From IMG/VR virus record IMGVR_UViG_3300021424_001947, positions 1 to 20,676 of that record: a DNA stretch of 20,676 bases; one strand, given 5' to 3'. The notes under the pieces were generated by a model that saw nothing but the letters and a program-made list of their open reading frames with translations, searched no databases and had not been told where the DNA came from. The DNA is from a virus. The position numbers and the translations under genes were made by a program. This document shows, in pieces, positions 4,096-19,599 of this stretch (the stretch's first letter is position 1; each line of letters opens with the position of its first letter).

Positions 4096-4178
4096 TCTTG
4101 CTGGTGCGGATGGGACTCTCTCCCGCCTGGTTTCTTGCCTCCAGTCAAAGGGTAAGTGGCGAGCCTGATAATACACTT
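4096..4178 (+). ncRNA. Candidate structured RNA upstream of the sugar operon
   Basis: This gene-free stretch is more GC-rich than its surroundings and has many short complementary segments: CTGG 4101-4104 or 4127-4130 with CCAG 4141-4144, GCGG 4106-4109 with CCGC 4123-4126, CTTGCC 4134-4139 with GGCGAG 4158-4163, and TAAGTG 4153-4158 with CACTTA 4174-4179. Some of these cross, so a pseudoknot is possible. A terminator follows directly. The wcaG RNA motif is a known candidate cis-regulatory RNA from cyanophages, linked to polysaccharide genes, and its setting would fit. I cannot confirm the match from memory. It does not fold as a tRNA on either strand. Confidence 0.4.
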
Positions 4179-4207
4179 AGGGGGTTGACAACAACCTCCT
4201 TTTTTTT
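4179..4207 (+). terminator. Rho-independent terminator before the sugar operon
   Basis: Stem 4179-4187 pairs with 4192-4200 (nine pairs, one G-U) around an ACAA loop, followed by a run of T to 4207. This is a clear terminator. It would end transcripts from the small-gene region, or act as an attenuator for the candidate RNA just upstream. Its hairpin contains the -35 box of the next promoter. Confidence 0.85.
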
Positions 4208-4214
4208 GTATGAT
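4185..4214 (+). promoter_or_regulatory. Sigma70-like promoter of the carbohydrate operon
   Basis: TTGACA (4185-4190) and TATGAT (4209-4214) with an 18-base spacer. The -35 box lies in the stem and loop of the terminator and the T tract forms part of the spacer. The predicted start at about 4221 gives a leader of about 20 bases before the ATG at 4242. This would let host polymerase start the operon afresh after upstream transcripts end. Confidence 0.75.
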
Positions 4215-4241
4215 ACATACTATAGAGTTTATTGGTTTTTG

Positions 4242-5156
4242 ATGAATGTAATTGCTGGAAATTGTGCAGGAGTTTTTAGTGGATTTCTTTTGCAACTTGC
4301 TTGGATGGAAACAGTTGAAAAATCCGATGGAGATATAAACCTTTTTTTGCATACAAGAAATAAAACTCATTATCCTGGTAGTAGTTACTCAGATTATAGA
4401 TGGATAGAATCCTCTCAAGTTAATAATTTTCATGAAGTTTTAGAGAAAAACGTTCTTTTAGATTTCTTTAAACCAAATGAATATCTGGGTAGAGAATATC
4501 CAAAAGACTTTACTTACTTTGAGGCTTATCCTGCAGATATAAAGTCGCAATTAAAATACTATCCAGAAGATACTCTTAAATATGATGGTAGAGGTAGCAA
4601 AAAAGAACAGTATGTTGATCCAGAAAATCTTACTAGAACTAGACTGTCGTTGAATAATCAATGGAAAAAATTTAAACCATTAGATGATTTTTCTGAAAAA
4701 ATAAAAAACGAAGAAAAATTAATCGAAGGAAAAAAGGTAATGTCTGTTATGCTAAGACAAACAGGACATTATCAAGGAGTTTCTAATGTAGTTGAACCTG
4801 CTATCGAATCTGTTAAAAATAAAATTGATGATTACGATGCAGTTCTTTTAACTACAATGATTCAACCTTTTGTTGATGAATTTAAAAAAGTTTTTGGAGA
4901 CAGATGTATTGTTGCAGATAGACCAAGACTTTCTCAAGATATTGATTGGAAAGGAGGTAGGAATTCTCAACAGGGTGGACAAGAATCTATGACTGATGAG
5001 GAATATAACCTTGAATATCAAAATGCATTTTTAGATGTAATTTTATCTAGTAAAACTGAGTATATTGTTGGTAGTAGTAGTAATATGTTTCTTGCTGCTT
5101 TACTGATGAACCCAAATATTGTATATGATCTTTTTTATTTTGCGGATGGATATTGA
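4242..5156 (+). CDS. Putative glycosyltransferase, fucosyltransferase-like fold
   Basis: A 304-residue predicted cytoplasmic enzyme and the first gene of the operon. The C-terminal third carries VMSVMLRQTGHYQG, resembling the basic donor-binding strand of GT11/GT23-type fucosyltransferases, and later LSSKTEYIVGSSSNMFLAAL, resembling the conserved end of those families, where a Ser-rich loop contacts GDP. I infer a GT-B enzyme that may use a GDP-sugar. Family placement is uncertain. The start at 4242 leaves a short leader after the promoter; the open frame extends upstream to 4098 through the terminator, which is not credible coding sequence. It ends two bases before the next ATG. Confidence 0.68.
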   Translation: MNVIAGNCAGVFSGFLLQLAWMETVEKSDGDINLFLHTRNKTHYPGSSYSDYRWIESSQVNNFHEVLEKNVLLDFFKPNEYLGREYPKDFTYFEAYPADIKSQLKYYPEDTLKYDGRGSKKEQYVDPENLTRTRLSLNNQWKKFKPLDDFSEKIKNEEKLIEGKKVMSVMLRQTGHYQGVSNVVEPAIESVKNKIDDYDAVLLTTMIQPFVDEFKKVFGDRCIVADRPRLSQDIDWKGGRNSQQGGQESMTDEEYNLEYQNAFLDVILSSKTEYIVGSSSNMFLAALLMNPNIVYDLFYFADGY

Positions 5157-5158
5157 TT

Positions 5159-5959
5159 ATGAAAAAGAAATTTAATCTAGTTGGAAATACCTTCACTCAT
5201 CTCACTGGAGGTAACAAAGGCTATTCTGTTCATGGTAAAGAATCCAAATATATTGAATGGGTTCAAAGCGGTGGGGATGGAACGTTCTATATTGATAATA
5301 CCATCAATGAAGGAGTTAATGATAAAAGATCTGGACCCAAATATCTTTGGCTTTTAGAATCTAAATTTATCAAACCAGGTCTTGTTGAAAGTATTATTGA
5401 AAATCTTGAACTAGTTGAAAATACATTCGATATTATTTTCACTCATGATCAAAGACTTCTTGCTCTTGGTGATAAGTTTAAATGGGTTCCTGCCCAAGGA
5501 TTCTGGATTAAAGAACCAAAGATCTATGAGAAATCTAAAATGATTTCTATGATTTCTTCAAACAAACGAATGTGTGAAGGTCATCTAAAGAGACTTGAAT
5601 GGATTGAAAGAATTGGTGATCAGGTTGATCTTTATGGCCGTGGATTCAATGAAATTGAATTGAAAGAAGATGGTCTATGTGACTATATGTTCTCTGTAGC
5701 AATTGAGAATGGTCAGTATTCAACTTACTTCACAGAAAAACTTTTAGATTGTTTTGCAACAGGAACTATTCCTGTTTATCTGGGTGCTCCAGATATCGGA
5801 GAACATTTTAACATGGATGGTATCATCGTGTTGAGTGATGAGTTTGATGTTTCAGAAGAAATCTATTACGGCAAAATGGATGCTATTCAAGATAATCTTG
5901 AACGGGCTAAAAAGTTAGAAATCTTAGAAGACTTTATTTGGGAGAATTATTTAAAATGA
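5159..5959 (+). CDS. GT10-family fucosyltransferase (alpha-1,3/1,4 type)
   Basis: A 266-residue protein whose last hundred residues match the GT10 core: DYMFSVAIENGQYSTYFTEK then LLDCFATGTIPVYLGAPDI (about residues 175-213). In GT10 enzymes this region binds GDP-fucose, with Glu and Lys of the TEK motif contacting the nucleotide. Known members transfer L-fucose from GDP-fucose to GlcNAc or Glc. The N-terminal half, which binds acceptors in this family, is divergent. The ATG at 5159 follows the upstream stop by two bases; a TTG at 5153 is a weaker alternative. The gene overlaps the next by 4 bases. GDP-fucose would come from the gmd and fcl products in the same operon. Confidence 0.85.
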   Translation: MKKKFNLVGNTFTHLTGGNKGYSVHGKESKYIEWVQSGGDGTFYIDNTINEGVNDKRSGPKYLWLLESKFIKPGLVESIIENLELVENTFDIIFTHDQRLLALGDKFKWVPAQGFWIKEPKIYEKSKMISMISSNKRMCEGHLKRLEWIERIGDQVDLYGRGFNEIELKEDGLCDYMFSVAIENGQYSTYFTEKLLDCFATGTIPVYLGAPDIGEHFNMDGIIVLSDEFDVSEEIYYGKMDAIQDNLERAKKLEILEDFIWENYLK

Positions 5960-6297
5960 ACTTTGGAAATTTGATTGACGAGTGTATTAAAGAAACGATT
6001 GATGAAGTCCTTTCTCGTAGAGAACTTCCTGATGTTAAATATATTGAAACTGATAATCTTGGAGAAGTTGTAGAAAAACTTTCTATTCTTCATACTCGTA
6101 TGTGGATGTTAGAAGATGCAATTCAAGAAGCAAAAACTGACCAAGAGATTGCTGAATTAAAAAAGAAGATTGATATCTGCTTTAAAGTAAAGCGTCCTCG
6201 TTTGGTACAAGCAGTCAACTTACTTGTTGATAATGCAATTGCAACAGGAAGATCTTTAAGAGAGGATTCTGTAAAACTTTATAAAGGTGTAGAATGA
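5956..6297 (+). CDS. DUF4254-like small helical protein
   Basis: A 113-residue, probably all-helical protein. The pattern LHTRMWMLEDAIQEAKTDQE then IAELKKKIDICFKVKRPRLV resembles DUF4254 proteins, which have an LH..xW.LED motif, a charged linker and a lysine-rich helix ending in a conserved Arg. Those are found beside GT9-type glycosyltransferases in surface-polysaccharide clusters; their function is not known to me. The next gene here also looks GT9-like, which fits. I chose the ATG at 5956, in a 4-base overlap with the upstream stop; an ATG at 5938 would add six residues. The resemblance is by eye and remote. Confidence 0.6.
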   Translation: MNFGNLIDECIKETIDEVLSRRELPDVKYIETDNLGEVVEKLSILHTRMWMLEDAIQEAKTDQEIAELKKKIDICFKVKRPRLVQAVNLLVDNAIATGRSLREDSVKLYKGVE

Positions 6298-7019
6298 AAA
6301 TCTGTTTAATCAATCAACCAGCAGGTATTGGTGATGTATTTTTTCTTCAGTACATTGCTAGAAAGTATCTCTCAATGGGATACAAAGTTATTTGGCCTTT
6401 GCAGGAAAGACTTCTTTGGATTAAGGATTACATTACTGACATTGATTTCTGTTCTCAAAATGATGATTTTCCTGGAAAGGAATATTATGGTCAGATGGGA
6501 ATTATCCAATCTCCACAGTTTGTTTACCTAGGAATGGATATGATTCATTTCTGGCAAAACGATTTTGGTATTTCTGAGTCAGAAACGTGTATGTGTATGC
6601 ACGCAAAGTATCTTCAACTTTTTCTTGACTGGAATAAGTGGTCTGAAGGATTCAAGTTTACAAGAAACATAGAAAGAGAGAATCATCTTTACTATGATGT
6701 GTTAGGATTAAAAGATGATTCTGAATATGTGTATGTAAATCTCTATGCGAATACTGATAACAAGAAAAATAATGTTCTTCAGTTTCCTGAATTTGATCTT
6801 CCAATTGTAGAGAACGATATCAACTATTGTCTGTTTGATTATTGTAAGGTACTTGAGAACGCAAAAGAAATTCATACCGTCCATACATCTGTCCCATACC
6901 TGATTGATGTTCTTGATATCAAAGCAGAAAAATATTTGATGTATCAAGGAATTCATAATGACGATATAAAATATATTCCTTTTGTAAATACAAATCCAAT
7001 TTACGTACCAAATAGTTGA
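6294..7019 (+). CDS. Putative GT9-like glycosyltransferase
   Basis: A 241-residue protein starting MKICLINQPAGIGDVFFLQY. The glycine-rich GIGD loop near the N terminus is typical of heptosyltransferase-like (GT9) and related GT-B enzymes. Near the C terminus, LENAKEIHTVHTSVPYLIDV resembles the segment in which those proteins recognise a nucleotide-sugar or guard the active site. The protein is shorter than typical GT9 enzymes (320-350 residues) and the middle is not recognisable, so the donor and acceptor are unknown. It starts in a 4-base overlap after the DUF4254-like gene. Confidence 0.6.
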   Translation: MKICLINQPAGIGDVFFLQYIARKYLSMGYKVIWPLQERLLWIKDYITDIDFCSQNDDFPGKEYYGQMGIIQSPQFVYLGMDMIHFWQNDFGISESETCMCMHAKYLQLFLDWNKWSEGFKFTRNIERENHLYYDVLGLKDDSEYVYVNLYANTDNKKNNVLQFPEFDLPIVENDINYCLFDYCKVLENAKEIHTVHTSVPYLIDVLDIKAEKYLMYQGIHNDDIKYIPFVNTNPIYVPNS

Positions 7020-7023
7020 AGTC

Positions 7024-7362
7024 ATGTATACTGAAGAAAGACCTTGGGGTATGTTTGAAACTTTATGTGAAGGGTCATCCTATAAAGTAAAAAGAATCTA
7101 TGTAAACTCTAATCAATCATTTTCTCTACAATATCATGATAATAGATGGGAAGATTGGATTATTGTTGAAGGTGGTGGTACTATTAATGTGGGGGAAGAA
7201 TTGAACAATTGTGTAGTGGGTGATAGATTTCAGATACCACCTAAAACTATTCATAGAGCAACTGCTGGATCTGAAGGTTTGACTTTTATTGAAATTCAAC
7301 GTGGTATTTGTGATGAAAACGACATCACTAGACTGGAAGATAACTACGGTAGAGTTGTTTAA
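7024..7362 (+). CDS. Mannose-6-phosphate isomerase type II-like cupin
   Basis: A stand-alone 112-residue cupin equivalent to the C-terminal domain of ManC/AlgA-type enzymes. The family signatures are visible: RPWG.FE (residues 6-12), YKVKRIYV (20-27), SLQYH (34-38), IPPKTIHRA (71-79), FIEIQRG and DITRLEDNYGR at the end. In that family the enzyme interconverts fructose-6-P and mannose-6-P, feeding GDP-mannose synthesis. The metal-site strand is altered: the usual QxHHHRxEHW reads QYHDNRWEDW, so His38, Glu43 and later His77 remain but other histidines are lost. Activity is therefore uncertain. No guanylyltransferase domain accompanies it. It begins four bases after the upstream stop. Confidence 0.82.
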   Translation: MYTEERPWGMFETLCEGSSYKVKRIYVNSNQSFSLQYHDNRWEDWIIVEGGGTINVGEELNNCVVGDRFQIPPKTIHRATAGSEGLTFIEIQRGICDENDITRLEDNYGRVV

Positions 7363-7408: not shown

Positions 7409-8149
7409 ATGAATCGTATCGAAAATTACTCTATCCTTGAAGGTAGAATTGTTGAATGGTTAAAGGATTACGCTATAACTAATAATGTTAAAGCATTTGT
7501 AATTGGAGTCTCTGGTGGAATTGACTCTGCAGTTTCTTCAACTCTTGCAGCAAAAACTGGTCTCCCAGTTTATGCTCTTGGTATGCCGATCCATCAGAAA
7601 GAAGAACAGGAAACTCTCTCAGACGTTCACCTTCAGTGGCTCGATGATAGCTTTAGTAATGTAACTACACTCAAGTATGACCTGACTGGTGTCTTTGATG
7701 CCTTCAAACAAACAATGAACGGTTATGGCGAGAACACTCATGCTCTTGCTAATAGTCGTTCAAGACTTCGTATGGTTACTCTTTATCAAGTAGCAACTTC
7801 AGTTGGTGGTATCGTTGTTGGTACGGGTAATAAAGTTGAAGATTATGGAGTAGGTTTCTATACTAAGTATGGTGATGGTGGAGTTGATATTGCTCCTATT
7901 GCAGATCTTTATAAGACTGAAGTATGGGAACTTGGAAAACATTTAGGTGTCAACTCTGGTATTATCGAAGCAAAACCAACTGATGGACTCTGGGATGATG
8001 GCCGAACTGATGAAGATCAGTTAGGTGCTTCTTATGAGCAACTGGAAGAAGCAATGGAAACTGGATCTGGTCCTGGTCTTGAGTCTCTTCTCAAGTTCTC
8101 CTCAATGAATAGCCATAAAATGCAACCAATTCCTACTTTCAAACTATGA
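7409..8149 (+). CDS. nadE: Ammonia-dependent NAD synthetase
   Basis: A 246-residue enzyme of the NadE family, which adenylates nicotinate adenine dinucleotide with ATP and amidates it with ammonia to form NAD. The ATP-pyrophosphatase loop SGGIDS is at residues 35-40. GTGNKVEDYG and KYGDGGVDIAPIADLYKTEV (about 138-172) match the substrate-binding region, and GLWDDGRTDEDQLGASYEQL (193-212) matches the C-terminal motif. No glutaminase domain is present. It has a 46-base upstream gap, the second largest in the operon, with AAGAAAG before the ATG, and overlaps the next gene by 4 bases. NAD(P) is a cofactor of the operon's dehydrogenase, dehydratase and reductase; it might instead counter NAD-depleting host defences. 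Both are inferences. Confidence 0.92.
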   Translation: MNRIENYSILEGRIVEWLKDYAITNNVKAFVIGVSGGIDSAVSSTLAAKTGLPVYALGMPIHQKEEQETLSDVHLQWLDDSFSNVTTLKYDLTGVFDAFKQTMNGYGENTHALANSRSRLRMVTLYQVATSVGGIVVGTGNKVEDYGVGFYTKYGDGGVDIAPIADLYKTEVWELGKHLGVNSGIIEAKPTDGLWDDGRTDEDQLGASYEQLEEAMETGSGPGLESLLKFSSMNSHKMQPIPTFKL

Positions 8150-9069
8150 GTGTCTGCCTCGTTCTAAGTAACAAAATTTCTGACGATAGTTGGAAAGATA
8201 AAATTCCACCAATCGATGGGTTTGGAACTGAGGGAATAGGATCCATGCTCCAATATCATCTGCTCTTAAATTTCTTTGCAGATTTTATTGGAGTTGAATT
8301 CACATATCCTGGTTCTGAAAATTTTGCACATCATTCATATACGGAATATTCAAAAGAAGAATATTTCAAAATGATAGATTCCTTCTTTAACTTTCCAAAT
8401 CTAAATGGTGGTTGGGATCAAGTTATTACTATGTCAGAGATAAATGATAGTCTCATGTCATTTATTAATGAAAATAAAAATAATGATAAGAAAATACTAA
8501 TTAACTTGTATAACTGCCATAGAGAATTGGCATCTCTATGTGGCCATTATATGACTGAGATCTTTACAAAAGAACGAATAGATAAGATTAGAAATAATTT
8601 GTATTTTTCTGGAGAAAGATATTTTGATGAGAACATAAATATCTCATTGCACATTAGAACTGCAAATCCAGATGATATCCCTGCAGAAATTGTTTCTACT
8701 TATAGAGAAAAATATATTTTCGAAAAAGACTTTCATAGATACAAAAATTTAGTTGACTTCCTAAAGAATAATACCAAGGATAAGAAAGCAACTCTGCATA
8801 TACATTCTCAAGGATTTACTACAAATTTTGAAGAATTTTTTGAATTAAAAGAAGAAAATTTTGATATTAAATTGCACATTGATGATCATCCTATAAGTGA
8901 CATCTATCATATGGTAAATGCAGATTTTCTTATAATGTCCAATAGTTCTTTCTCTTGGTTATCTTCTTTATTGAACAGCAATCAAAAGATTGCCAGAGAT
9001 AATTTTATGAATGGGCCTTTTGTGCATAATTGTTTAAAGGCAAATTACGACTATAGTCAAATTTCATAA
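8146..9069 (+). CDS. Putative GT11-like glycosyltransferase
   Basis: A 307-residue protein. Three segments follow the order seen in GT11 and related fucosyltransferases: ISLHIRTANPDD (the basic strand, HxR), ATLHIHSQGF, and MVNADFLIMSNSSFSWLSSL near the end, comparable to the ANSSxSWWGA motif of the two clear GT11 genes at 16322 and 17991. The rest is divergent, so I read it as a distant member with unknown donor and acceptor. It starts on a 4-base overlap with nadE. The N terminus (LVLSNKISDDSWKDKIPPID) has no signal or membrane segment. Confidence 0.65.
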   Translation: MSVCLVLSNKISDDSWKDKIPPIDGFGTEGIGSMLQYHLLLNFFADFIGVEFTYPGSENFAHHSYTEYSKEEYFKMIDSFFNFPNLNGGWDQVITMSEINDSLMSFINENKNNDKKILINLYNCHRELASLCGHYMTEIFTKERIDKIRNNLYFSGERYFDENINISLHIRTANPDDIPAEIVSTYREKYIFEKDFHRYKNLVDFLKNNTKDKKATLHIHSQGFTTNFEEFFELKEENFDIKLHIDDHPISDIYHMVNADFLIMSNSSFSWLSSLLNSNQKIARDNFMNGPFVHNCLKANYDYSQIS

Positions 9070-9097: not shown

Positions 9098-10258
9098 ATG
9101 AGTATGAAGATTGGTGTAATTGGTGCCGGTAGACTTGGAATTTGCTTTGCTCTTCTTTGTGAAGCAGCAGGGTATGATGTTTTGGTCTCTGACATCAGAG
9201 AAGAATATGTTCAAAAATTGAATGAAAGAAAAATCGATACGAATGAACCTGAAGTAGAGAACCTTCTTCGCGTTGCAAAGAATTTTAGAGCAACAACAAA
9301 CAATAAAGAAGTTATTGATGAGTGTGATTTGATTTACACTCTAGTTTCTACTCCATCTCTTCCTGATGGATCTTATGATGTTTCATCTGTATGGCAAGTT
9401 GTTGAAGACTTTAAGGACGTTTCTAAAACTAAGTATTTTGTTGTTGGGTGTACCACCAATCCTGGAGATTGTGATAACTTCAAAAAACAACTTCCAAGTA
9501 ACGTAAAAGTTTTTTATAACCCAGAATTTATTGCTCAGGGGTCAATTATCAGTGATCTCCGTACTGCAGATATGGTTCTTCTTGGAACCGATCCATTTTC
9601 TAATGACGATTTGATTATTGCAAACATTAGAAAGTTGTATGAAAAAATTCAAACAACCCGTGCAATTGTTTGTTCCATGTCAACAACAGCTGCAGAAATC
9701 ACTAAGATTGCAATCAATTGTTTCTTAACTACGAAAATCAGTTATGCAAACATGCTAGGTGATGTTTTGCATCATGCTGGATGTGGAGATGAAGTAAACA
9801 CTGTTCTGTCTGCTGTTGGAACTGATAGTCGTGTTGGTAGAAAATACCTTGGATATGGCTTTGGATATGGTGGCCCTTGTCTTCCTAGAGACAACAGATC
9901 TTTTGCTGCATTTGCAAAGAAGGTTGGATTAGATTATAACCTAGGGACAGTCACGGATGAAATTAATAACCAACATGCAACTTTTGTCTGTGAATATTTT
10001 GAGAAAATGAATCAAAACAAAAATCCATTTTATTTTGATTCCATCAGTTATAAAATAGGAACCGATATTCTTACTGAAAGTCAGCAATATCGTCTATGTT
10101 TGGATCTTCTTAATAGAGGATATAAGGTCTACATTCGCAACGATCAAAAAGCAGTAAGTCAAGTTGAAGATGAACTGAGAGAAAAGTATGGTGATAGGGT
10201 CTGTATTGTTGATGATTCGTCATATATTACTGAACCTATTTTTGTTGTGACTCTATGA
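9098..10258 (+). CDS. UDP-glucose/GDP-mannose dehydrogenase family protein
   Basis: A 386-residue nucleotide-sugar dehydrogenase, which oxidises the C6 alcohol of a nucleotide sugar to a uronic acid with two NAD. Residues 5-35 form the NAD-binding GxGxxG fold (GVIGAGRLGICFA). AEITKIAINCFLTTKISYAN (199-218) holds the conserved Lys and Asn, and GYGFGYGGPCLPRDNRSF (252-269) the catalytic cysteine, Cys261. The C-terminal sugar-binding domain is shorter and more divergent than usual (families run about 390-440 residues), so the substrate (UDP-Glc, GDP-Man or other) cannot be told. AAAGGAG lies seven bases before the ATG at 9098, the strongest ribosome-binding site in the operon. It overlaps the methyltransferase gene by 4 bases. 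Confidence 0.87.
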   Translation: MSMKIGVIGAGRLGICFALLCEAAGYDVLVSDIREEYVQKLNERKIDTNEPEVENLLRVAKNFRATTNNKEVIDECDLIYTLVSTPSLPDGSYDVSSVWQVVEDFKDVSKTKYFVVGCTTNPGDCDNFKKQLPSNVKVFYNPEFIAQGSIISDLRTADMVLLGTDPFSNDDLIIANIRKLYEKIQTTRAIVCSMSTTAAEITKIAINCFLTTKISYANMLGDVLHHAGCGDEVNTVLSAVGTDSRVGRKYLGYGFGYGGPCLPRDNRSFAAFAKKVGLDYNLGTVTDEINNQHATFVCEYFEKMNQNKNPFYFDSISYKIGTDILTESQQYRLCLDLLNRGYKVYIRNDQKAVSQVEDELREKYGDRVCIVDDSSYITEPIFVVTL

Positions 10259-10977
10259 AAATTGCGAAGTATCCATATGTAAATGAATCTGAAATTTCTG
10301 TATCTGAGAATGCTATCTACTTAAATTCTAGTTGGGTTCATCCAGAAAAAGATTCAAAATGGGATGCTCCATTTGTTTGGGAATTGAATGTAATTCAAAG
10401 ATTTGTTGATGAAATAAAAGAAGATTCTGTTATTCTTGATGTTGGTGCAAATACTGGAACTTTTTCTCTTGCTGCAAAACTGTATCCAAATACGAAATGG
10501 CATTCATTTGAACCAGATCCATTTAATTTTTCTTTACTGAAAGAAAATATAGAGATTAATGGTATTGAAAATATCACATTGTACGAGGAAGCTTTAAGTG
10601 ATAATGTTGGTGAATGTGTTTTGAAAATATGTCTAACTCATAGAGGACTTAATACTATTGGTAAAAATGTGAAAAGATTTTCAGAAGATGAATCTATAGA
10701 TTATCCTGTCAAATCTAATACCATCGACAATCTCTTTATTGATACCAGAATTGATCTGATCAAAATAGATACAGAAGGTGCAGAGTATGATATAATTAAG
10801 GGTGGTATTGAAACTATTCAAAAATATAAACCAAAAATTTTGTTAGAATATAATCCTGGAAATATGAGTCAATGTGGCCACACTCTAGAAAAATTAAATT
10901 CTCTCATACAAGAAATAGGTTACAATCCATTTTGGTTTGATAATGGAGAGAACCTTTTTATTTCCTCTACAACTTAA
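10255..10977 (+). CDS. FkbM-family methyltransferase
   Basis: A 240-residue S-adenosylmethionine-dependent methyltransferase. Motif I is VILDVGANTGTFSLAA (59-74), followed by FEPDP at 85-89, the acidic strand that binds the ribose, and later LIKIDTEGAEYDIIKGG, diagnostic of the FkbM family. Such enzymes O-methylate sugars in polysaccharide and antibiotic clusters. In this operon the likely substrate is a hydroxyl of the glycan or nucleotide sugar. The length is typical of the family. The start is set by a 4-base overlap with the dehydrogenase gene. The next gene starts four bases after its stop. Confidence 0.88.
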   Translation: MKIAKYPYVNESEISVSENAIYLNSSWVHPEKDSKWDAPFVWELNVIQRFVDEIKEDSVILDVGANTGTFSLAAKLYPNTKWHSFEPDPFNFSLLKENIEINGIENITLYEEALSDNVGECVLKICLTHRGLNTIGKNVKRFSEDESIDYPVKSNTIDNLFIDTRIDLIKIDTEGAEYDIIKGGIETIQKYKPKILLEYNPGNMSQCGHTLEKLNSLIQEIGYNPFWFDNGENLFISSTT

Positions 10978-10981
10978 ATTT

Positions 10982-12085
10982 ATGCTTACTAAAAAACATT
11001 TAAAAATAAAATCTATTGAAGAAATTAGGGGAATTCTAGATTCAATCAAGACCGAAGAATATTCTTTGGTAAACTACGTTTGGACTGAGTATGGATTTTA
11101 TCCTACTTTCTTTAATGAACTATTCGAAGGTTTCTTCAAAGATGTTAAAGGTCCAAAAATTGGATTTTGTTTTCCTGGTCAAGAAGTATTTTATGAACCT
11201 CATGTTGATACTCTTGTAACTCTGGATGGTTTTATTGATACAACAAAAGCTTATAAGGACAGTCAAGAGACGGAACTTCTTTTAAATAATTTTAAAACAA
11301 TTCCGGATAAAGGTATTGCTTTTTGGTATACTCTTCGCAATTTTGATGAAGACTTATATGAAGAAGCTTTCTCTGGATATGTCTTCAAAAATATCTTATA
11401 TCCAATTGGAAAGGACTTGCATTGGAAACTTGGATGGCCACCTGGACCTGGGCATAAGTATGCAGAAGGTGAAGATGGTACATGGTATTTTCCATCTTGC
11501 AAATACTATGAGGCTGGTGTTCAGGCATATGATCTGGACTTATGGAATCCTAACTTTAAAAAAACTGATGGTTTAGGAATCGAAAAATATAACACGTTCT
11601 TTGTTAAGAATAGTTGGAAAACCAGAAACTATGGGTCGATCAATATTAATGATTACTTAGTTGGAAAGGATGGTACATCTGGTGATTTGAGATTTGGAAG
11701 TGTTGAGTTTGATTTATATGCAAAAGTAATTGATTATCACATTAAGAATAAAATAAACTTAGTAATCATTAACGACTTAGTTAAATTTCCTGTTGTTGAT
11801 AATGAATATATTTCTTATGTTGACATGACTGGGTTCTTAGATGTAAGATATCTTTTAACAATTATCGAAGAATCAAATAACTTTATTAATACAGGAACTA
11901 GTCCTGGTGACTTGGCTGCATATTATTGTGCCACAAACCAAGTTATTGTTGGGGATGATAGAATCCAAAATAGGACTCAGTTTTGCGATACTATCTTAGG
12001 AAAAAGAAATAAAAAAGTTTTTAGATTCCATACAGTTGATAAAAACTACGATGAGTTATTTGAATTCTTAGATCAACACTCTTAA
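10982..12085 (+). CDS. Unrecognised protein of the glycan operon, 367 residues
   Basis: I do not recognise this protein. It is soluble and rich in aromatic residues, with a distinctive centre: [20 protein letters not shown] then [20 protein letters not shown]. The C-terminal third ([20 protein letters not shown] then [20 protein letters not shown]) looks like the donor-binding half of a GT-B enzyme or of the GT11-like proteins nearby, where a short S/T-rich loop follows a helix. A glycosyltransferase is the best guess from context. The ATG at 10982 is chosen because the upstream stop ends at 10977; an ATG at 10943 would overlap the methyltransferase gene by 35 bases. No ribosome-binding site is clear for either. 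Confidence 0.6.
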
Positions 12086-12089
12086 AAAA

Positions 12090-13091
12090 ATGAAAGTAGC
12101 ATTAATCACTGGAATCACAGGGCAAGACGGATCATATCTTGCAGAACTTCTTCTTGAAAAGGGGTATGAAGTTCATGGTATTATTCGTCGATCGTCTTCA
12201 ATTAATACCAGTAGAATTGATCACATCTTCGATAAAATAAAACTTCATTATGGTGATTTAACAGATTCTACAAATATGGTTAGAGTTATTCAGTTAGTTC
12301 AACCTGATGAAATTTATAATCTTGGGGCTCAAAGTCATGTGAAGGTTTCTTTTGAAATGCCTGAGTATACTGGACAAACTGATGCTCTAGGAACTCTTCG
12401 TATTCTGGAAGCAGTTAGACTTCTTGGACTTGAAGATAAAACTAGAATATATCAAGCATCTACCTCAGAGATGTTTGGTAAAGTTAGAGAAATTCCACAA
12501 AAAGAAACCACGCCTTTTCACCCAAGATCTCCTTATGGGTGCTCAAAAGTTTATGCATATTGGATTACTAAAAACTATAGAGAAGCATATGGAATGTATG
12601 CTTGCAGTGGAATTCTTTTCAATCATGAATCTCCACGTAGAGGAGAAACATTTGTAACAAGGAAAATTGTTAGAGGATTGAAATCTATTAGTGAGGGTAG
12701 GCAAAATCTTTTAGTTCTTGGAAACCTTGATGCTAAGCGTGATTGGGGACATGCTAAAGATTATGTTCGTGCAATGTGGATGATGTTGCAGCAAGATGTT
12801 CCGGATGATTATGTAATTTCTACACACAAACAATATTCTGTCCGTGAGTTTGTTCAAGCAGCTGCTCCATATTTTAATATGGATATTAGTTGGCAAGGAT
12901 CTGGTGATGATGAAATTGGAATTGATTTGAATAGTGGAAAAACTGTTATTGCGGTGAATCCAAAATACTATAGACCCTCTGAGGTTGATACTCTTCTTGG
13001 TGATGCTACTAAAGCAAAAAATGAACTTAGATGGGAACCTGAAATTTCATTTGATCAACTAGTAGAGGACATGTGTAGAAATGAATCTTGA
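12090..13091 (+). CDS. gmd: GDP-mannose 4,6-dehydratase
   Basis: A 333-residue short-chain dehydrogenase/reductase that converts GDP-D-mannose to GDP-4-keto-6-deoxy-D-mannose using bound NADP. The nucleotide-binding glycines are in ITGITGQDG (G8, G11, G14), with [12 protein letters not shown] (33-44) typical of Gmd. The catalytic set is Thr125-Ser126-Glu127 in STSEMFG plus Tyr149 and Lys153 in [26 protein letters not shown] and the end [16 protein letters not shown] are also family hallmarks. It is somewhat shorter than the E. coli enzyme (373), with no sign of truncation. The product is the branch point for the next two enzymes, fucose synthase and the ColD-like dehydratase. The last 11 bases overlap fcl. 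Confidence 0.97.
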
Positions 13092-14010
13092 TAGTAAAAT
13101 ATTTGTTGCTGGCCATCTTGGTCTTGTTGGATCTGCCATTGTTCGTTCTCTAAGAGAAAAAGGATATAAAAATCTTGTGCTTGCCACTCGCAAGGACCTT
13201 GATCTTCGCAATGAAAGTGCAGTCTTGAAATTTTTTAAAGAAACTAAACCAGATTATGTTTTCCTATCCGCAGCAAAGTGTGGTGGGATTAAGGATAATA
13301 TTGATTATCCTGTTCAGTTTCTTGAAGATAATTTGAAGATTCAGGGCAACGTTATTTCTTCTTCATATCAAAGTGGTGCTAAGAAATTAATGTTTCTTGG
13401 ATCTGCTTGCATTTATCCAAGAGAATGTGAAAATCCAATCAAGGAAGAGCATCTACTTTCTGGATATCTTGAACCTACTAATGAAGCATATTCTATTGCC
13501 AAGATTTCTGGTATTAAACTGTGTCAATCATACAATAAACAATATGGGACAAATTACATATCAGTAAATCCATGTAATGTTTATGGCCCAAAAGATAACT
13601 TTAATCCAGAATCAAGCCATGTTATTGCTGGTTTGATTCGTCGCATTCATGAAGCAAAGAAAAATAAAAAAGAATTTGTAGAATGTTGGGGTACAGGTAA
13701 TGCAAGGCGAGAGTTTATTTACGTTGAAGATCTTGCAGAGGCACTTATTTTTTTGATGAATCACTATGATGGAAGTGAAATCATAAATGTTGGTGTGGGT
13801 AAGGATGTATCCATTAAAGAACTTGTCGGACACCTTGTGGATGTGATAGAATATACTGGTAAAATAAAATGGGATACAACAAAACCAGAAGGAGTAAAGC
13901 AAAGACTTCTTGATGTAAAGAAAATTATTGATCTTGGTTGGGAACCTAAAACACCAATTGATCTTGGATTAAAACTAACATATGAGTATTTTAAATTAGG
14001 GGAAAAATGA
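13081..14010 (+). CDS. fcl: GDP-L-fucose synthase (epimerase/reductase)
   Basis: A 309-residue enzyme of the WcaG/Fcl family that epimerises GDP-4-keto-6-deoxymannose at C3 and C5 and reduces it with NADPH to GDP-L-fucose. The N-terminal fold is [13 protein letters not shown] (G11, G14, G17). The catalytic residues are Ser108 and Cys110 in LGSACIYP, and Tyr137 and Lys141 in NEAYSIAK. The usual SSC reads SAC here, a conservative change that keeps the key Ser and Cys. AAKCGGI and PCNVYGP are further family marks. The position between gmd and the ColD-like gene, with 11- and 4-base overlaps, fits one pathway. A role as a colitose synthase (ColC-type) is possible but less likely. Confidence 0.95.
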
Positions 14011-15176
14011 CTTATTGGCCACTGATGGAAGATACGATTTCTTTTAGGGATCGTTTAAAAATGGCAATGTTCTTATTGACCAGTAGCAGACTAACTAATG
14101 GACCTAAGGTTCGTGAATTCGAATCAAAATGGTCAGAGTGGTTGAATGTAAAACATTCACTCTATGTCTCTAGTGGTAGCACTGCTAACTCCTTGTTGAT
14201 TGCTGCAGTTAAAGAACATTATGGTTTGAACGATGGAGATAAAGTTTTAGTTCCTGCAACTACATGGATGACAAACATTGCTCCTGTTTTTCAAAACGGA
14301 CTGCAACCAATTTTTTGTGATATTAATCTTGATAATTACTCTTTTGATATTGATGAATTGAAGTACATCGCTACTCAACATCCAGACATTAAAGTAGTTT
14401 TTATTACTCATTTGATTGGGTTTTCTTCTAATGTTGAACTTGTTGGAGATATCTTCCCGAATGCTTTGATTCTTGAAGACGTTTGTGAGTCTCATGGTGT
14501 TGAAGGTCCTAATAATAAAAAGCGTGGTAGTGATTCCATTGGATCTACTTTTAGTTTTTATTTTGGACATCATATGACCACCATTGAAGGTGGTATTGTT
14601 TGTACAAACAATACTGAACTTTATGAACTGATGCGAATGAAGCGTAGTCATGGTATGGCTCGTGAAGCATCTACTGAGATGTTTAAAAAGTACAGTCAAG
14701 AAAATCCAAACATTGATCCTGCGTTTCTGTTCATGACAGATGGATATAATTTCCGCAATCATGAAGTTTGTGCTGTATTGGGTTTGTCTCAGATCAAACG
14801 TCTTGATAAAAACATTGAGATTCGCAGAGAAAATTTTCAGTATTGGATGCAAAACTTTTTAGATTCTCCAAACTCTAAAAATTATATAATTCCAGAGAAT
14901 CAACAAGGAAATAGTAGTTTTTCTTTTCCAATAATTACCAGAGACAAATCATTCACTGATTATTTGAAAAGTTCATTTAGACATCAGGGTATTGAGTATC
15001 GTCCTATTATTAGTGGTAATATTCTCATGCACCCAGCATTTAAAAAGTATAGTCTTTGCACACAAAAAGAAAATACAAATGTAGATATCTTGCACAAAAA
15101 TGGGCTATATGTTGGTAATAGTCAGTTTGTAAATAAAGAAAAAATTGATAGACTTCTCACATTAATGGGTCTATAA
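14007..15176 (+). CDS. colD: ColD-like GDP-4-keto-6-deoxymannose 3-dehydratase
   Basis: A 389-residue PLP enzyme of the DegT/DnrJ/EryC1/StrS fold. The PLP phosphate motif VSSGSTANSLL (54-64) and EDVCESHG (157-164) are conserved. The site that normally holds the Schiff-base lysine, just before the EGG motif, reads FGHHMTTIEGG, with His188 in place of Lys. This swap is the hallmark of the ColD/RfbH 3-dehydratases, which remove the C3 hydroxyl rather than transaminate. The end (IEYRPIISGNILMHP and NGLYVGNSQ) also resembles ColD, as does the length (388 in E. coli). With Gmd upstream the likely substrate is GDP-4-keto-6-deoxymannose, leading to GDP-colitose. No dedicated ColC is obvious; the Fcl-like protein may serve. 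It overlaps fcl by 4 bases. Confidence 0.85.
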   Translation: MTYWPLMEDTISFRDRLKMAMFLLTSSRLTNGPKVREFESKWSEWLNVKHSLYVSSGSTANSLLIAAVKEHYGLNDGDKVLVPATTWMTNIAPVFQNGLQPIFCDINLDNYSFDIDELKYIATQHPDIKVVFITHLIGFSSNVELVGDIFPNALILEDVCESHGVEGPNNKKRGSDSIGSTFSFYFGHHMTTIEGGIVCTNNTELYELMRMKRSHGMAREASTEMFKKYSQENPNIDPAFLFMTDGYNFRNHEVCAVLGLSQIKRLDKNIEIRRENFQYWMQNFLDSPNSKNYIIPENQQGNSSFSFPIITRDKSFTDYLKSSFRHQGIEYRPIISGNILMHPAFKKYSLCTQKENTNVDILHKNGLYVGNSQFVNKEKIDRLLTLMGL

Positions 15177-15226: not shown

Positions 15227-16312
15227 ATGAGTCATTATAAAAAAACAGCATTGGTTTTTGGTGCTGGTGGATTTATTGGAAGTCATATGGTTAAGAGACT
15301 TCGTGCTGAGGGTTATTGGGTCAGAGGTGTAGACCTTAAGAGGCCTGAATATTCTGAAACCGAAGCAAATGAGTTTATTCAAGGTGACTTGACTGACTAT
15401 AACCTTGTCGAAAGATGCATTGAATTCAAAGGCTATCTTGGAAACTTCTATCAATATGTTCCTGATCAGCAAGTAGACACTTTTGATGAAATCTATCAGT
15501 ATGCTGCTGATATGGGTGGTGCAGGATTTGTTTTCAGTGGAGAAAATGATTCTGAAATCATGACTAACTCTGCTGCAATCAATCTGAATCTTTTGCTTGC
15601 ACAGAAAAAAATAAATGATCGTAAGAGTGTAAACAAGACTAAGATTTTCTATAGTTCCTCTGCTTGCATGTATCCTGAGTATGCTCAGATGGATGTGAAT
15701 AATCCTGGTCTTAAAGAAACAGATGCCTATCCTGCAGGACCTGACTCTGAGTACGGTTGGGAAAAACTATTCTCAGAAAGACTCTTCCTTGCATATAATC
15801 GAAATCATGAAATTCCAGTTCGTATTGGTAGATTCCATAATATCTTTGGCCCAGAAGGAACTTGGGTTGGGGGTAGAGAAAAATCTCCTGCAGCAATGTG
15901 TCGTAAAGTAGCAGAAGCATCTGACGGTGGTGTGGTTGAAATTTGGGGTGATGGAGAACAGACTCGTTCTTTCCTTTATATTGATGAGTGTATTGAAGCA
16001 ACTCGCCGTTTGATGGAATCGGATTTCTTGGGTCCTGTAAATATTGGATCTGAAGAGATGGTAACGATCAATCAACTTGCAGATATTGCTGCTAAAGTTG
16101 CTGGAAAGACCATCGTTAAAAAGCATATTGATGGACCTCTTGGTGTTCGTGGACGTAATTCTAACAACGATCTTATTCGCGAAAAACTTGGATGGGACTA
16201 CACAATGACTCTTGAAGAAGGCATTGCTAAAACATATGCATGGATTTCTGAGAAAGTCGAAGAACAAGAAAGACTGTATAACTGGGAACCACTTCCATCT
16301 TTTTCTTTCTGA
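15227..16312 (+). CDS. gme: GDP-mannose 3,5-epimerase
   Basis: A 361-residue SDR enzyme closely resembling the plant GDP-mannose 3,5-epimerase, which makes GDP-L-galactose (and GDP-L-gulose). Visible hallmarks include the NAD fold FGAGGFIGSH (G12, G15, G18), YAADMGGAGFV (92-102), the catalytic YSSSACMYPE (142-151, Cys147), YGWEK (Tyr176, Lys180), then GRFHNIFGPEGTW, WVGGREKSPAAMCRK, QTRSFLYIDECIEATRR and GVRGRNSNNDLIREKLGWDY. Almost every family block is conserved, which argues for a working enzyme. The ATG at 15227 has GAGG eight bases upstream. A late promoter-like box lies in the 50-base gap before it. It shares the GDP-mannose donor with Gmd, giving a second route to an L-galacto-configured sugar. 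Confidence 0.96.
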   Translation: MSHYKKTALVFGAGGFIGSHMVKRLRAEGYWVRGVDLKRPEYSETEANEFIQGDLTDYNLVERCIEFKGYLGNFYQYVPDQQVDTFDEIYQYAADMGGAGFVFSGENDSEIMTNSAAINLNLLLAQKKINDRKSVNKTKIFYSSSACMYPEYAQMDVNNPGLKETDAYPAGPDSEYGWEKLFSERLFLAYNRNHEIPVRIGRFHNIFGPEGTWVGGREKSPAAMCRKVAEASDGGVVEIWGDGEQTRSFLYIDECIEATRRLMESDFLGPVNIGSEEMVTINQLADIAAKVAGKTIVKKHIDGPLGVRGRNSNNDLIREKLGWDYTMTLEEGIAKTYAWISEKVEEQERLYNWEPLPSFSF

Positions 16313-16321
16313 GGAACTTTT

Positions 16322-17191
16322 GTGATTGGATACAATAGACTTGGAACAAATGGTCGCTTAGGCAATCAAATGTTTCAGTATGCATCTCTAAGAGGCATTG
16401 CCGCAAATAATAATTTGGATTGGTGTATTCCTCCTCATGATACACCAAACTATGCAAATTATGGTTTGTTCGATGCTTTTAAATTAAAGAATTTGAATCA
16501 TACTGGGCTTATCAATGGACCTACCTATGATGAGCCTGGGTTTGATTTTGATGAAGAGTTGTTTAATAATTGTCCTGATAATGTAAACATTGATGGATAT
16601 CGCCAATCTGAAAAATATTTCAAACACATAGAGAACTTTATTAGAGAAGACTTTGAATTTAATGATGAGATTTATGAACCTTGTAAAGAGTTTATGAATC
16701 AATTCAATGAGAATATTATTCTCCTCCATGTGCGTAGAGGTGATAATACTGGTCGTCCTGACTGGTATCCGATGCCAACAGTTGATCATTACGAATATCT
16801 TTTAGACAAGTATTTTAACAATGATCAACCAGTTCTAATTTGTTCTGATGATCTTGAATGGGTTAAAGAACAAAAACTTTTTAGTAGCGATAGATTTTAT
16901 TTGTCAGAAACAAGAGTTTATTATTCGCATCAAACTTTAAATGGTGCAGGACAAATGGAGAAATCTTTAGTCCCTTATTATGACTTGTGTCTGATGACAA
17001 TGTGCAGTGATGCAATTATTGCTAACAGTTCTCTTTCCTGGTGGGGTGCTTGGCTTCAGAAAAATCCAAATAAAAAAATCATTACCCAAAGTCCATGGTT
17101 TGGTGAGAGATTGTCTTTTAATAATACTAAGGATCTGATTCCAGAATCTTGGATTGTTGAAAGAATTCCTGAGGAGAGAATTCAACGATGA
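16322..17191 (+). CDS. GT11 alpha-1,2-fucosyltransferase-type enzyme, copy A
   Basis: A 289-residue GT11 enzyme. All GT11 motifs are present: GRLGNQMFQYA (11-21), LHVRRGD (135-141, with the Arg that binds GDP) and IIANSSLSWWGAWL (232-245). Members transfer L-fucose, or other L-galacto sugars such as L-galactose and colitose, from GDP. The length is typical (280-300). The start is a GTG at 16322: GAGGAA lies six bases upstream, and the next ATG would cut off the GRLGNQ motif. It lies directly after gme, so its donor could be GDP-L-galactose; this is inference. It overlaps the GT2-like gene by 4 bases and is a close paralogue of the GT11 gene at 17991. Confidence 0.92.
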   Translation: MIGYNRLGTNGRLGNQMFQYASLRGIAANNNLDWCIPPHDTPNYANYGLFDAFKLKNLNHTGLINGPTYDEPGFDFDEELFNNCPDNVNIDGYRQSEKYFKHIENFIREDFEFNDEIYEPCKEFMNQFNENIILLHVRRGDNTGRPDWYPMPTVDHYEYLLDKYFNNDQPVLICSDDLEWVKEQKLFSSDRFYLSETRVYYSHQTLNGAGQMEKSLVPYYDLCLMTMCSDAIIANSSLSWWGAWLQKNPNKKIITQSPWFGERLSFNNTKDLIPESWIVERIPEERIQR

Positions 17192-17994
17192 TAGATTTAA
17201 CATTTCTCATTCCAACCAGAATCGAAACAGAAGACAGATTGAGAAACATTATCTCATCTGTCTCTTATTTGTTGCGACACATACCAGCAAAAATAATTGT
17301 TAAGGAAGTTTCTAATCGTCCAACTTTTCAGTTTAGAGCCGTACCTGAGATTAAAAAATATGCAAATACGAATAATCTGACTTATCTGTATGAAGAAAAT
17401 GATGATCCTTTGTTCTGTAAAAGTAAAGTTCTAAACGATTTGATAGTTGCGTCAGATACAAAAGTTGTTGCAAATTACGATGCTGATTGTATTTTACCAA
17501 TTTCATCATATCATCAAGCATATGGTGCAATTAATGATGATCATGCTGACGTAGTGTATCCTTATGGATGTGGAATCTATCAGTGGAAAGCAGAATACAA
17601 TATGAATATTTACAGTGACTTTGTAAGTTCTCTTGATACTTCTGTTCTTGATAGAAATAAGACCCTTTCAAATTCAACCATTGGATGGACGCAGTTTATA
17701 AATCGACAAAAGTATATTGATTCTTATATGATGAATGAAAACTTTGTGTCTTGGGGTTGTGAAGATGATGAATTTTATTATCGTATGAGTGTTCTTGGTA
17801 ATCGTATTGCACGTATTGATAACTATGTCTATCACTTAGAACACAGTAGGACTCATAATTCTTGGTTCAGCAATCCCAATTTTAACAATAATTGGAACTT
17901 GTGGAATACTATTAAGACGTTTGACAAAGAACAACTTATACGGTATTATGAAAGTCAAGACTATCTAAAAAAACGCAGAGAACAATTGAAATGA
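17188..17994 (+). CDS. GT2/GT7-like glycosyltransferase
   Basis: A 268-residue GT-A-type transferase. It opens with LTFLIPTRIETEDRLRNII, the nucleotide-binding start of inverting family-2-like enzymes. VVANYDADC (93-101) supplies the DxD metal site (Asp98, Asp100). WGCEDDEFYYRMSVLG (189-204) matches the C-terminal W-G-x-E-D-D block of GT7-type galactosyltransferases and chondroitin-polymerase-like proteins. It therefore probably adds Gal, GalNAc or GlcNAc to the growing glycan. It is sandwiched between the two GT11 genes, with 4-base overlaps on both sides. The family assignment is between GT2 and GT7. Confidence 0.8.
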   Translation: MIDLTFLIPTRIETEDRLRNIISSVSYLLRHIPAKIIVKEVSNRPTFQFRAVPEIKKYANTNNLTYLYEENDDPLFCKSKVLNDLIVASDTKVVANYDADCILPISSYHQAYGAINDDHADVVYPYGCGIYQWKAEYNMNIYSDFVSSLDTSVLDRNKTLSNSTIGWTQFINRQKYIDSYMMNENFVSWGCEDDEFYYRMSVLGNRIARIDNYVYHLEHSRTHNSWFSNPNFNNNWNLWNTIKTFDKEQLIRYYESQDYLKKRREQLK

Positions 17995-18803
17995 TAGGAT
18001 TTAACGCACTCGGGCGGATGGGAAGATTTGCCAATCAAATGTTTCAGTATGCTGCACTGAAGGGTATTGCAAGAAATATCGGAGCAGATATTATGATTCC
18101 AAACCACACTCAAGTGATGGATGATGGTATTGGTAACATGCTTCGAACTGAACTATTTGACTCTTTTGATTTGAGAGTAAATGTTGGTCTTTTGAATAAT
18201 GGACATTCTCCCGTGGTGAATGAAAGGTTCTTTCATTTTGATGAAGAACTTTTTCGCATGTGTCCAGATCATGTAAGCTTGCAAGGTTATTTTCAAACAG
18301 AAAAGTATTTCAAACATATTGAAGATGAAATTCGTGAGGACTTTACTTTTAAAGATGAAATTTTAAAACCTTGTAAGGAGATGATTTCATCTGTTGATAA
18401 TCCACTTGCACTTCACGTTCGTCGTACAGACTACGTTAGAAATAGCGGTAATCATCCCCCATGTACAATTGATTACTATCAAAAGGCTCTTAGTTATTTT
18501 GACAAAGATCGTAACGTAATTGTTTTTTCGGATGATCCTGCTTGGTGCCAGGAACAAGAAATTTTCTCTGATGATCGTTTTATGATTTCTGAGAATACTG
18601 ACAACAGAGTTGATCTTTGTTTGATGTCACTTTGTGATGATTTTATCATTGCAAATTCTACTTTTTCTTGGTGGGGTGCATGGCTCTCCACTAATAAAAA
18701 TAAAAAAGTTATTGCACCTGTCCAGTGGTTTGGAACTGGATACACAAAAGATCATAACACTAAAGATTTAATTCCCGATGACTGGACAAGAATTTCTGCT
18801 TGA
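17991..18803 (+). CDS. GT11 alpha-1,2-fucosyltransferase-type enzyme, copy B
   Basis: A 270-residue GT11 protein and paralogue of copy A. Shared blocks include GRxxNQMFQYA (11-21), the FDEELFxxCPD stretch, EKYFKHIEDEIREDFTFKDE (104-123, nearly identical in copy A) and IIANSTFSWWGAWL (219-232). The donor-binding motif reads HVRRTD (142-147) instead of HVRRGD, and the insert at 142-165 of copy A differs, so donor or acceptor preference may have changed after duplication. The start is fixed by the 4-base overlap with the GT2-like gene. Its last 26 bases overlap the GT25-like gene. Confidence 0.9.
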   Translation: MIGFNALGRMGRFANQMFQYAALKGIARNIGADIMIPNHTQVMDDGIGNMLRTELFDSFDLRVNVGLLNNGHSPVVNERFFHFDEELFRMCPDHVSLQGYFQTEKYFKHIEDEIREDFTFKDEILKPCKEMISSVDNPLALHVRRTDYVRNSGNHPPCTIDYYQKALSYFDKDRNVIVFSDDPAWCQEQEIFSDDRFMISENTDNRVDLCLMSLCDDFIIANSTFSWWGAWLSTNKNKKVIAPVQWFGTGYTKDHNTKDLIPDDWTRISA

Positions 18804-19599
18804 TAAAAATAAGTCAGTATACAAACTAAAAGGTATCCCTCATATCTATTGGTTAAATCTTGATGCCGATACTCATCGTCGTGAGTATATGGAGCAGCAG
18901 TTTAGATATTGGGAAATTGAAAATCATACTCGCATCTCTGGATTTGATGGTAGAGTTGATGATGTTTCCTGCCACTTAAAAGGTAGAATACCTGATAATA
19001 TATCTCAAAATGAATTGGGATGCTGCATGTCACATCTTAAAGCCATTAAAAAGTTTTATGAAGAAACCGATGACGAATATTGTTTAATTCTTGAAGATGA
19101 TGTGAATTTTGACATTGTAAAATATTGGAACTTTACTTGGTCAGAATTCTTTTCTCTTGCTCCATATGACTGGGATTGTCTTCAGTTAACTACTATTTGT
19201 ACTGGAGATATTCATGTCAAACTTCACTTAAAATTCATTAATGATTTCTCTGCAGCAATTTATCTTATTAGCAGACATCATGCTGCAAAGATGATGCGAC
19301 ACCATATTAGGGGTGATAAATTTAAATTGGATAACGGTGTTAAACCCAGAGCAGTTTCTGAGGATACTATTCTTGAAACTGGTAAAACATATACCATCCC
19401 ATTATTTTTATATAATCTACAAATGGGTTCTACCATTCACCAAGAACATTTAAGTATCTTTCATAAAGGTCCTCATGATGCTTTATTGAACTACTGGCAG
19501 CAAAGTGGTGCTAGTATTGATATTAGGGATTATATGAATTACGATCCATATCTGGGCCGAATCACTGAGAATAGTGCAGCGTCTCAACAAGAAGCTTGA
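18778..19599 (+). CDS. GT25-family LPS-type glycosyltransferase
   Basis: A 273-residue protein matching the GT25 family (LPS galactosyltransferases such as Lob/Lsg types). Visible motifs are IYWLNLDADTHRREYMEQQF (23-42), NELGCCMSHLKAIKKF (78-93) and LILEDDVNFD (103-112), the last giving the EDD metal and donor site. A C-terminal block (AVSEDTILE) has the SED-type motif. The start at 18778 overlaps copy B of GT11 by 26 bases; there is no better in-frame ATG before the IYWLNLD motif. It is the last gene of the operon. Its stop overlaps the -35 box of a downstream promoter. Confidence 0.86.
   Translation: MTGQEFLLDKNKSVYKLKGIPHIYWLNLDADTHRREYMEQQFRYWEIENHTRISGFDGRVDDVSCHLKGRIPDNISQNELGCCMSHLKAIKKFYEETDDEYCLILEDDVNFDIVKYWNFTWSEFFSLAPYDWDCLQLTTICTGDIHVKLHLKFINDFSAAIYLISRHHAAKMMRHHIRGDKFKLDNGVKPRAVSEDTILETGKTYTIPLFLYNLQMGSTIHQEHLSIFHKGPHDALLNYWQQSGASIDIRDYMNYDPYLGRITENSAASQQEA

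Follow-up and report, generated by a model that had tools for sequence, protein, structure and literature searches.

NAD synthetase (NadE) is a known enzyme and has already been annotated in several cyanophages. The NAD synthetases annotated in P-TIM68, Bellamy, S-SSM7 and HTVC008M are 54-71% identical to the protein described here, which is encoded in a 20.7-kb viral fragment (hereafter the window). They also adjoin a nucleotide-sugar dehydrogenase of the UGDH family, and in each case the synthetase was annotated as a single gene and not as one of a pair. A search of the open-licence literature returned no description of a NadE-dehydrogenase module.

The housekeeping NadEs of SAR11, Bacteroidota and marine euryarchaea are about 51-61% identical to the window protein and share with it all active-site residues as well as the clade motifs GTGNKVED and PTDGLW. 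They are chromosomal and single-copy with a UGDH nearby in 0/80 loci, whereas the phage NadE is paired with UGDH. Among the genomes sampled, those of SAR11, of marine euryarchaea and of several Bacteroidota yielded no full NAD synthetase other than one of this clade; the position of the gene in SAR11 is constant, with a class-II DAHP synthase-like gene on one side and cysS on the other (both named by sequence recognition). One genome of the SAR11 class sample (G199, contig C89) harbors a NadE of this clade as a second copy outside a glycan locus (L280:1929-2561), its other NadE being longer and apparently glutamine-dependent. The NMN synthetase NadE* of Francisella tularensis (3FIU) is the best structural match and is nevertheless only about 33% identical; compared with it, the loop GTGNKVED has one extra residue and the loop PTDGLWDDGR differs.

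Two further systems resemble the locus in chemistry or in product. Glutamine-amidotransferase routes of the WbpS type yield uronamides, that is, they perform the chemistry of one alternative weighed below, with a protein family that differs from NadE. The phage NAD reconstitution pathway NARP1, in which Adps and Namat act on ADP-ribose and nicotinamide (PMC12774641), ends in NAD as NadE does but includes neither NadE nor UGDH. In bacteria, none of the 385, 247 and 201 genomes sampled (from the class of a SAR11 genome, the phylum of a Bacteroidia genome and the phylum of a Chloroflexi genome, respectively) showed an LPS locus in which an additional NadE adjoins a UGDH, most cellular loci of this survey having short flanks. 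In one genome of the Bacteroidota sample (G559), the only detected NadE is in a glycan locus beside a GDP-mannose 3,5-epimerase-like (GME-like) epimerase and a GT11 gene (L281:7326-8513); no UGDH was seen near it, and the C-terminal part of the gene contains a tandem repeat (GDSCIRRNDSDDTS).

Cyanophages also encode a protein of about 140 aa that is widely labelled NAD synthetase and belongs to the SegE-like GIY-YIG endonuclease family (PF19835, about 1e-55; for example L004:26-463 and L001:4650-5084). The label is found in P-SSM2, P-SSM4, P-SSM7, P-RSM4, S-TIM4, ACG-2014d and others. A cyanophage NAD synthetase was counted in 24/153 (PMC10452541) and was reported to be periodically expressed (PMC7238727); both the count and the expression may rest on the GIY-YIG protein, from which true phage NadE is now set apart.

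A NAD synthetase within a cyanophage glycan island

By its sequence, the window is cyanophage DNA. Its matches are partial only and chiefly to Synechococcus phages, and it carries a gene for a cyanophage OMP family protein and several tRNA genes. The nadE gene is surrounded by a glycan island with the following features:

5153-5959, plus strand: GT10 fucosyltransferase (Pfam 7.9e-10)
7024-7362, plus strand: cupin of the mannose-6-phosphate isomerase C-terminal type (Pfam 1.3e-20)
7409-8149, plus strand: NadE, single-domain ammonia-type NAD(+) synthetase (Pfam, active-site residues, AlphaFold/PDB match)
8146-9069, plus strand: glycosyltransferase-like protein of 307 aa (ORF; PHROG 2644 glycosyltransferase 6e-7; without Pfam match)
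9098-10258, plus strand: NDP-sugar 6-dehydrogenase of the UGDH family (Pfam UDPG_MGDP_dh_N 3.7e-28, central domain 2.7e-22; TIGR03026)
10255-10977, plus strand: FkbM methyltransferase (Pfam 3.2e-20)
12090-13091, plus strand: GDP-mannose 4,6-dehydratase, Gmd (Pfam 1e-151)
13081-14010, plus strand: GDP-L-fucose synthase, Fcl (Pfam Epimerase 1.2e-62; so annotated in S-SKS1)
14007-15176, plus strand: DegT/DnrJ sugar aminotransferase (Pfam 1.2e-57)
15227-16312, plus strand: putative GME-like NDP-sugar epimerase (Pfam Epimerase 1.4e-34)
16322-17191, plus strand: GT11 fucosyltransferase (Pfam 7.2e-18)
17991-18803, plus strand: GT11 fucosyltransferase (Pfam 9.3e-31)
18778-19599, plus strand: GT25 glycosyltransferase (Pfam 1.4e-10)

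The cyanophage OMP gene follows the GT25 gene. The glycosyltransferase-like gene, which stands between NadE and UGDH in the phage group of the window, overlaps the nadE stop codon by 4 bp (ATGA), and UGDH begins 29 bp past its end, at the ATG in position 9098 (TTG 9095 in the ORF list). The assignment of the epimerase at 15227-16312 to GME is suggested by its sequence pattern. Three island proteins of 241-382 aa have no Pfam match (4098-5156, 6294-7019 and 10937-12085), and a Ferritin/Dps-like protein is encoded amid the phage tRNA genes (117-578; Pfam Ferritin 1.3e-21).

The nadE ORF starts with ATG and encodes 246 aa. Its product matches Pfam NAD_synthase (PF02540; E 6.3e-47, 160 bits for a cut-off of 21) and passes the TIGR00552 nadE model (163.8 bits for a cut-off of 63.65); it misses the equivalog cut-off of PRK13980 (183 vs 255 bits), a stricter model of one NAD+ synthase subgroup. 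All 11 positions that we take to be the annotated ATP, Mg and deamido-NAD sites of E. coli NadE are kept (G33, D39, R119, T139, E144, K153, D160, K169, T191, H236 and K237), including the ATP/Mg residues T139, E144 and K169. The PP-loop SGGxDS is present (G33-x-S35-G36-G37-I38-D39-S40), and R119, K153, D160, H236 and K237, presumably the deamido-NAD contacts, are invariant across UGDH-linked viral NadEs. The statement of the initial annotation that all NadE motifs appear intact is thus borne out, every known catalytic and substrate residue being kept.

Comparison with near phages indicates purifying selection on nadE (dN 0.05-0.19, dS 0.8-1.4, dN/dS <0.2). An AlphaFold model obtained from 44 sequences, the window protein plus those of the related loci, reached a pLDDT of 92.7 and a pTM of 0.91. 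It matched PDB NadE chains with Z of 20.9-32, the top fold match being 3FIU from Francisella (Z 32.0, rmsd 1.6 over 229 residues); by sequence, the best relatives of solved structure were again 3FIU together with archaeal and bacterial NadEs. By family, fold and intact active site, the window gene is a genuine NadE, and its product is very probably active as a NAD (or NMN) synthetase.

Strict pairing of NadE with a nucleotide-sugar dehydrogenase

Related loci were gathered from phage genomes, IMG/VR and cellular genomes. UGDH was found on the same strand and at most 1.75 kb from NadE in 90/90 of the closest viral loci, a set that includes near-duplicates and was picked by closeness to the query. 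The spacing between NadE and UGDH was exactly a 4-bp overlap in 56 of these loci and at most 15 bp in 66. Given the composition of this set, the search was repeated with more distant queries: among the 79 resulting loci whose flanks both measured 4 kb or more, UGDH was present in the available flank in 56 and within 2 kb in 51. The reverse search, starting from UGDH, recovered NadE in 59/70 loci, NadE being missing in the other 11. Loci L236 (4168-6161) and L243 (4141-6116) present a tandem pair of nucleotide-sugar dehydrogenase-like genes without NadE.

The other genes of the island are patchy. Within the 45 loci that have at least 6 kb of flank on each side, GME-like epimerases occur in 30, the two GT11s in 31 and 35, GT25 in 25, DegT in 14, Gmd in 9 and Fcl in 8; UGDH, present in all, is therefore the single constant gene. 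The initial annotation had pointed out the odd placement of NadE in a glycan operon; the placement is confirmed, but it is no one-off, dozens of marine phages having the same arrangement.

UGDH lies downstream of NadE in 193 cases and upstream in 23, the two genes mostly abutting. Of 25 contigs without UGDH near NadE in the available flank, 9 carry one elsewhere, in many cases at a distance of tens of kb. UGDH is also encoded in each of the 15 isolate records that have a window-type NadE, compared to 34 of 50,697 records overall; isolate records are not independent, and the count is given without a formal p-value. On two contigs with UGDH elsewhere (L313:3559-6729 and L363:3534-6732), NadE follows directly after Hsp20, GroES and GroEL-like genes.

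The NadE tree, which has very long outgroup branches, requires a minimum of 10 changes in adjacency to UGDH, and a single clade of UGDH-paired NadEs is rejected (AU p 1.5e-10); HTVC008M falls among SAR11-related sequences and L246 among Bacteroidota-related ones. The pairing is thus strict and was formed repeatedly. The partner itself varies, Bellamy and the window sharing 70% identity in NadE and just 24% in UGDH. The window UGDH exceeds the TIGR03026 cut-off (214.6 vs 189.8 bits) and had no Pfam match to the UGDH C-terminal domain family. In the UGDH alignment, the catalytic Cys262 is invariant, as are K204, N208, D266 and D33, the last being the acidic residue expected for NAD use. All this points to a conserved two-gene NadE-UGDH module that is used to build surface sugars.

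What NadE may provide to the dehydrogenase

We tentatively favour a role in which NadE supports its partner dehydrogenase with NAD(+), NAD being the presumed product and the dehydrogenase the presumed consumer. The host would supply NaAD (possibly NaMN), whose carboxylate would be activated with ATP; displacement of the AMP by ammonia would then give NAD(+). NadE would in this way keep NAD(+) available to the NAD(+)-dependent NDP-sugar 6-dehydrogenase, which would perform a four-electron oxidation to the NDP-uronic acid of a phage-directed surface glycan. A CN-hydrolase neighbour in Sf-FS3, considered as an ammonia source, was discarded, as it gave no Pfam match.

Within the island, the dehydrogenase is the enzyme with a stoichiometric turnover of free NAD(+): the cofactor of Gmd and of epimerases is regenerated during catalysis, and Fcl depends on NADPH. 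Cofactor supply, as put forward in the initial annotation, is plausible, but the counts single out one operon enzyme, UGDH being present in 90/90 loci vs 9/45 for GMD, 8/45 for Fcl and 30/45 for GME-like epimerases.

Substrate residues were compared between 162 UGDH-linked viral NadEs and 132 NadEs in NAD or unlinked contexts. The catalytic and substrate columns are 99-100% invariant in the UGDH-linked proteins, as in the NAD-context group, and only peripheral columns separate the two. In human NadE, Tyr525 stacks on the nicotinate and His648 contacts the adenine (PMC6946656). F150 and H236 of the window protein, which appear to correspond to these two residues, are conserved, and this favours NaAD as substrate and hence the supply of NAD.

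Some points argue against NAD supply. Since hosts all make NAD, and UGDH reduces NAD without destroying it, the need of UGDH for a phage NadE is not obvious. NadE alone moreover relies on host NaAD, and UGDH-bearing phages are without NAPRTase-family salvage. The window itself is a fragment. Among 29 NadE contigs, the NAPRTase family PF04095, which we take to cover NAMPT as well, was found in 6/8 UGDH-less but 1/21 UGDH-bearing ones (Fisher p 3.8e-4), so that the phages that look equipped for NAD rebuilding form a different set. CTP_transf_like matches occur in both groups, are mostly short and probably represent sugar-type cytidylyltransferases; they therefore do not discriminate between the groups.

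Three operons of large phages that contain a NadE of the window clade include a NadD-like adenylyltransferase (L340:3373-6792, L320:2900-6822 and L330:4499-6846), together with a NAPRTase in L340 and L320 and an isochorismatase-family protein, which would fit a nicotinamidase, in L330. These are apparent phage-encoded Preiss-Handler salvage operons and candidates for NAD rebuilding; no UGDH was found on the phage contigs bearing such operons.

Co-occurrence as strict as that of NadE and UGDH would sooner be expected of enzymes that catalyse successive steps of a pathway. NadE could be such an enzyme if it amidated the carboxylate made by its partner, an NDP-uronate being converted to the NDP-uronamide. 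Like NaAD, NDP-uronate is a nucleotide-diphosphate compound with a terminal carboxylate, so that ordinary NadE chemistry could be reused. UGDH is the sole constant partner, adjacent in both orders, drawn from two very divergent subfamilies and co-occurring even when unlinked; amidation is favoured by how strict the pairing is and by the lack of further NAD genes, salvage being found mostly in UGDH-less phages, and decoration genes such as methyltransferases and carbamoyltransferases are common nearby. However, no substitution at a substrate position sets UGDH-linked NadEs apart from NAD-context ones, and UGDH-linked NadEs are scattered among housekeeping clades, which would require a repeated and traceless substrate switch; our literature search also returned no NadE-type sugar amidase. 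We consider it possible, though rather unlikely, that marine phages repeatedly recruited NadE-type synthetases for the amidation of the nucleotide-sugar uronate that their partner dehydrogenase makes. The idea of a pocket remodelled for sugar amidation was dropped as a lead, the active site being the same in both groups of NadEs.

A variant that would leave the support of the dehydrogenase unchanged is that the enzyme amidates NaMN instead of NaAD, as an NMN synthetase (NadE*). The Francisella NMN synthetase 3FIU is its nearest PDB relative in fold and sequence, but at only about 33% identity, and in phage salvage operons of the same clade the NadD-like adenylyltransferase gene stands just before NadE, as expected for an enzyme that uses NaAD. 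This variant is improbable.

The initial annotation had also proposed that NadE refills NAD depleted by Thoeris, SIR2 or similar defences. NadE amidates NaAD (or NaMN) and cannot on its own use the ADP-ribose and nicotinamide released by NADases, PF04095 genes are absent from 20/21 UGDH-bearing NadE contigs, and the tie to UGDH would be left unexplained. Although NadE does make NAD, and other phages do rebuild NAD against such systems (NARP1; PMC12774641), the proposal is unsupported and this function very improbable for the window gene.

It is likewise very improbable that NadE accompanies UGDH only because a mobile and mosaic glycan island moves en bloc: NadE is indeed missing from some UGDH loci, but UGDH is found at every locus and the other island genes at between a fifth and about three quarters of them, the pair persists through the swap of UGDH families, both gene orders and unlinked co-occurrence are seen, the UGDH-adjacent state is polyphyletic, and nadE is under purifying selection.

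The presence of a strict module in abundant marine phages suggests that the making of an oxidised surface sugar depends on something that NadE alone can supply, be it NAD or an amide. If the amide were the answer, the module would represent a hitherto unknown way to make glycans that contain uronamides, and a housekeeping enzyme of cofactor synthesis would be working on sugars. Under both answers, a part of the large and still unexplained glycan islands of cyanophages would gain a function that can be tested.
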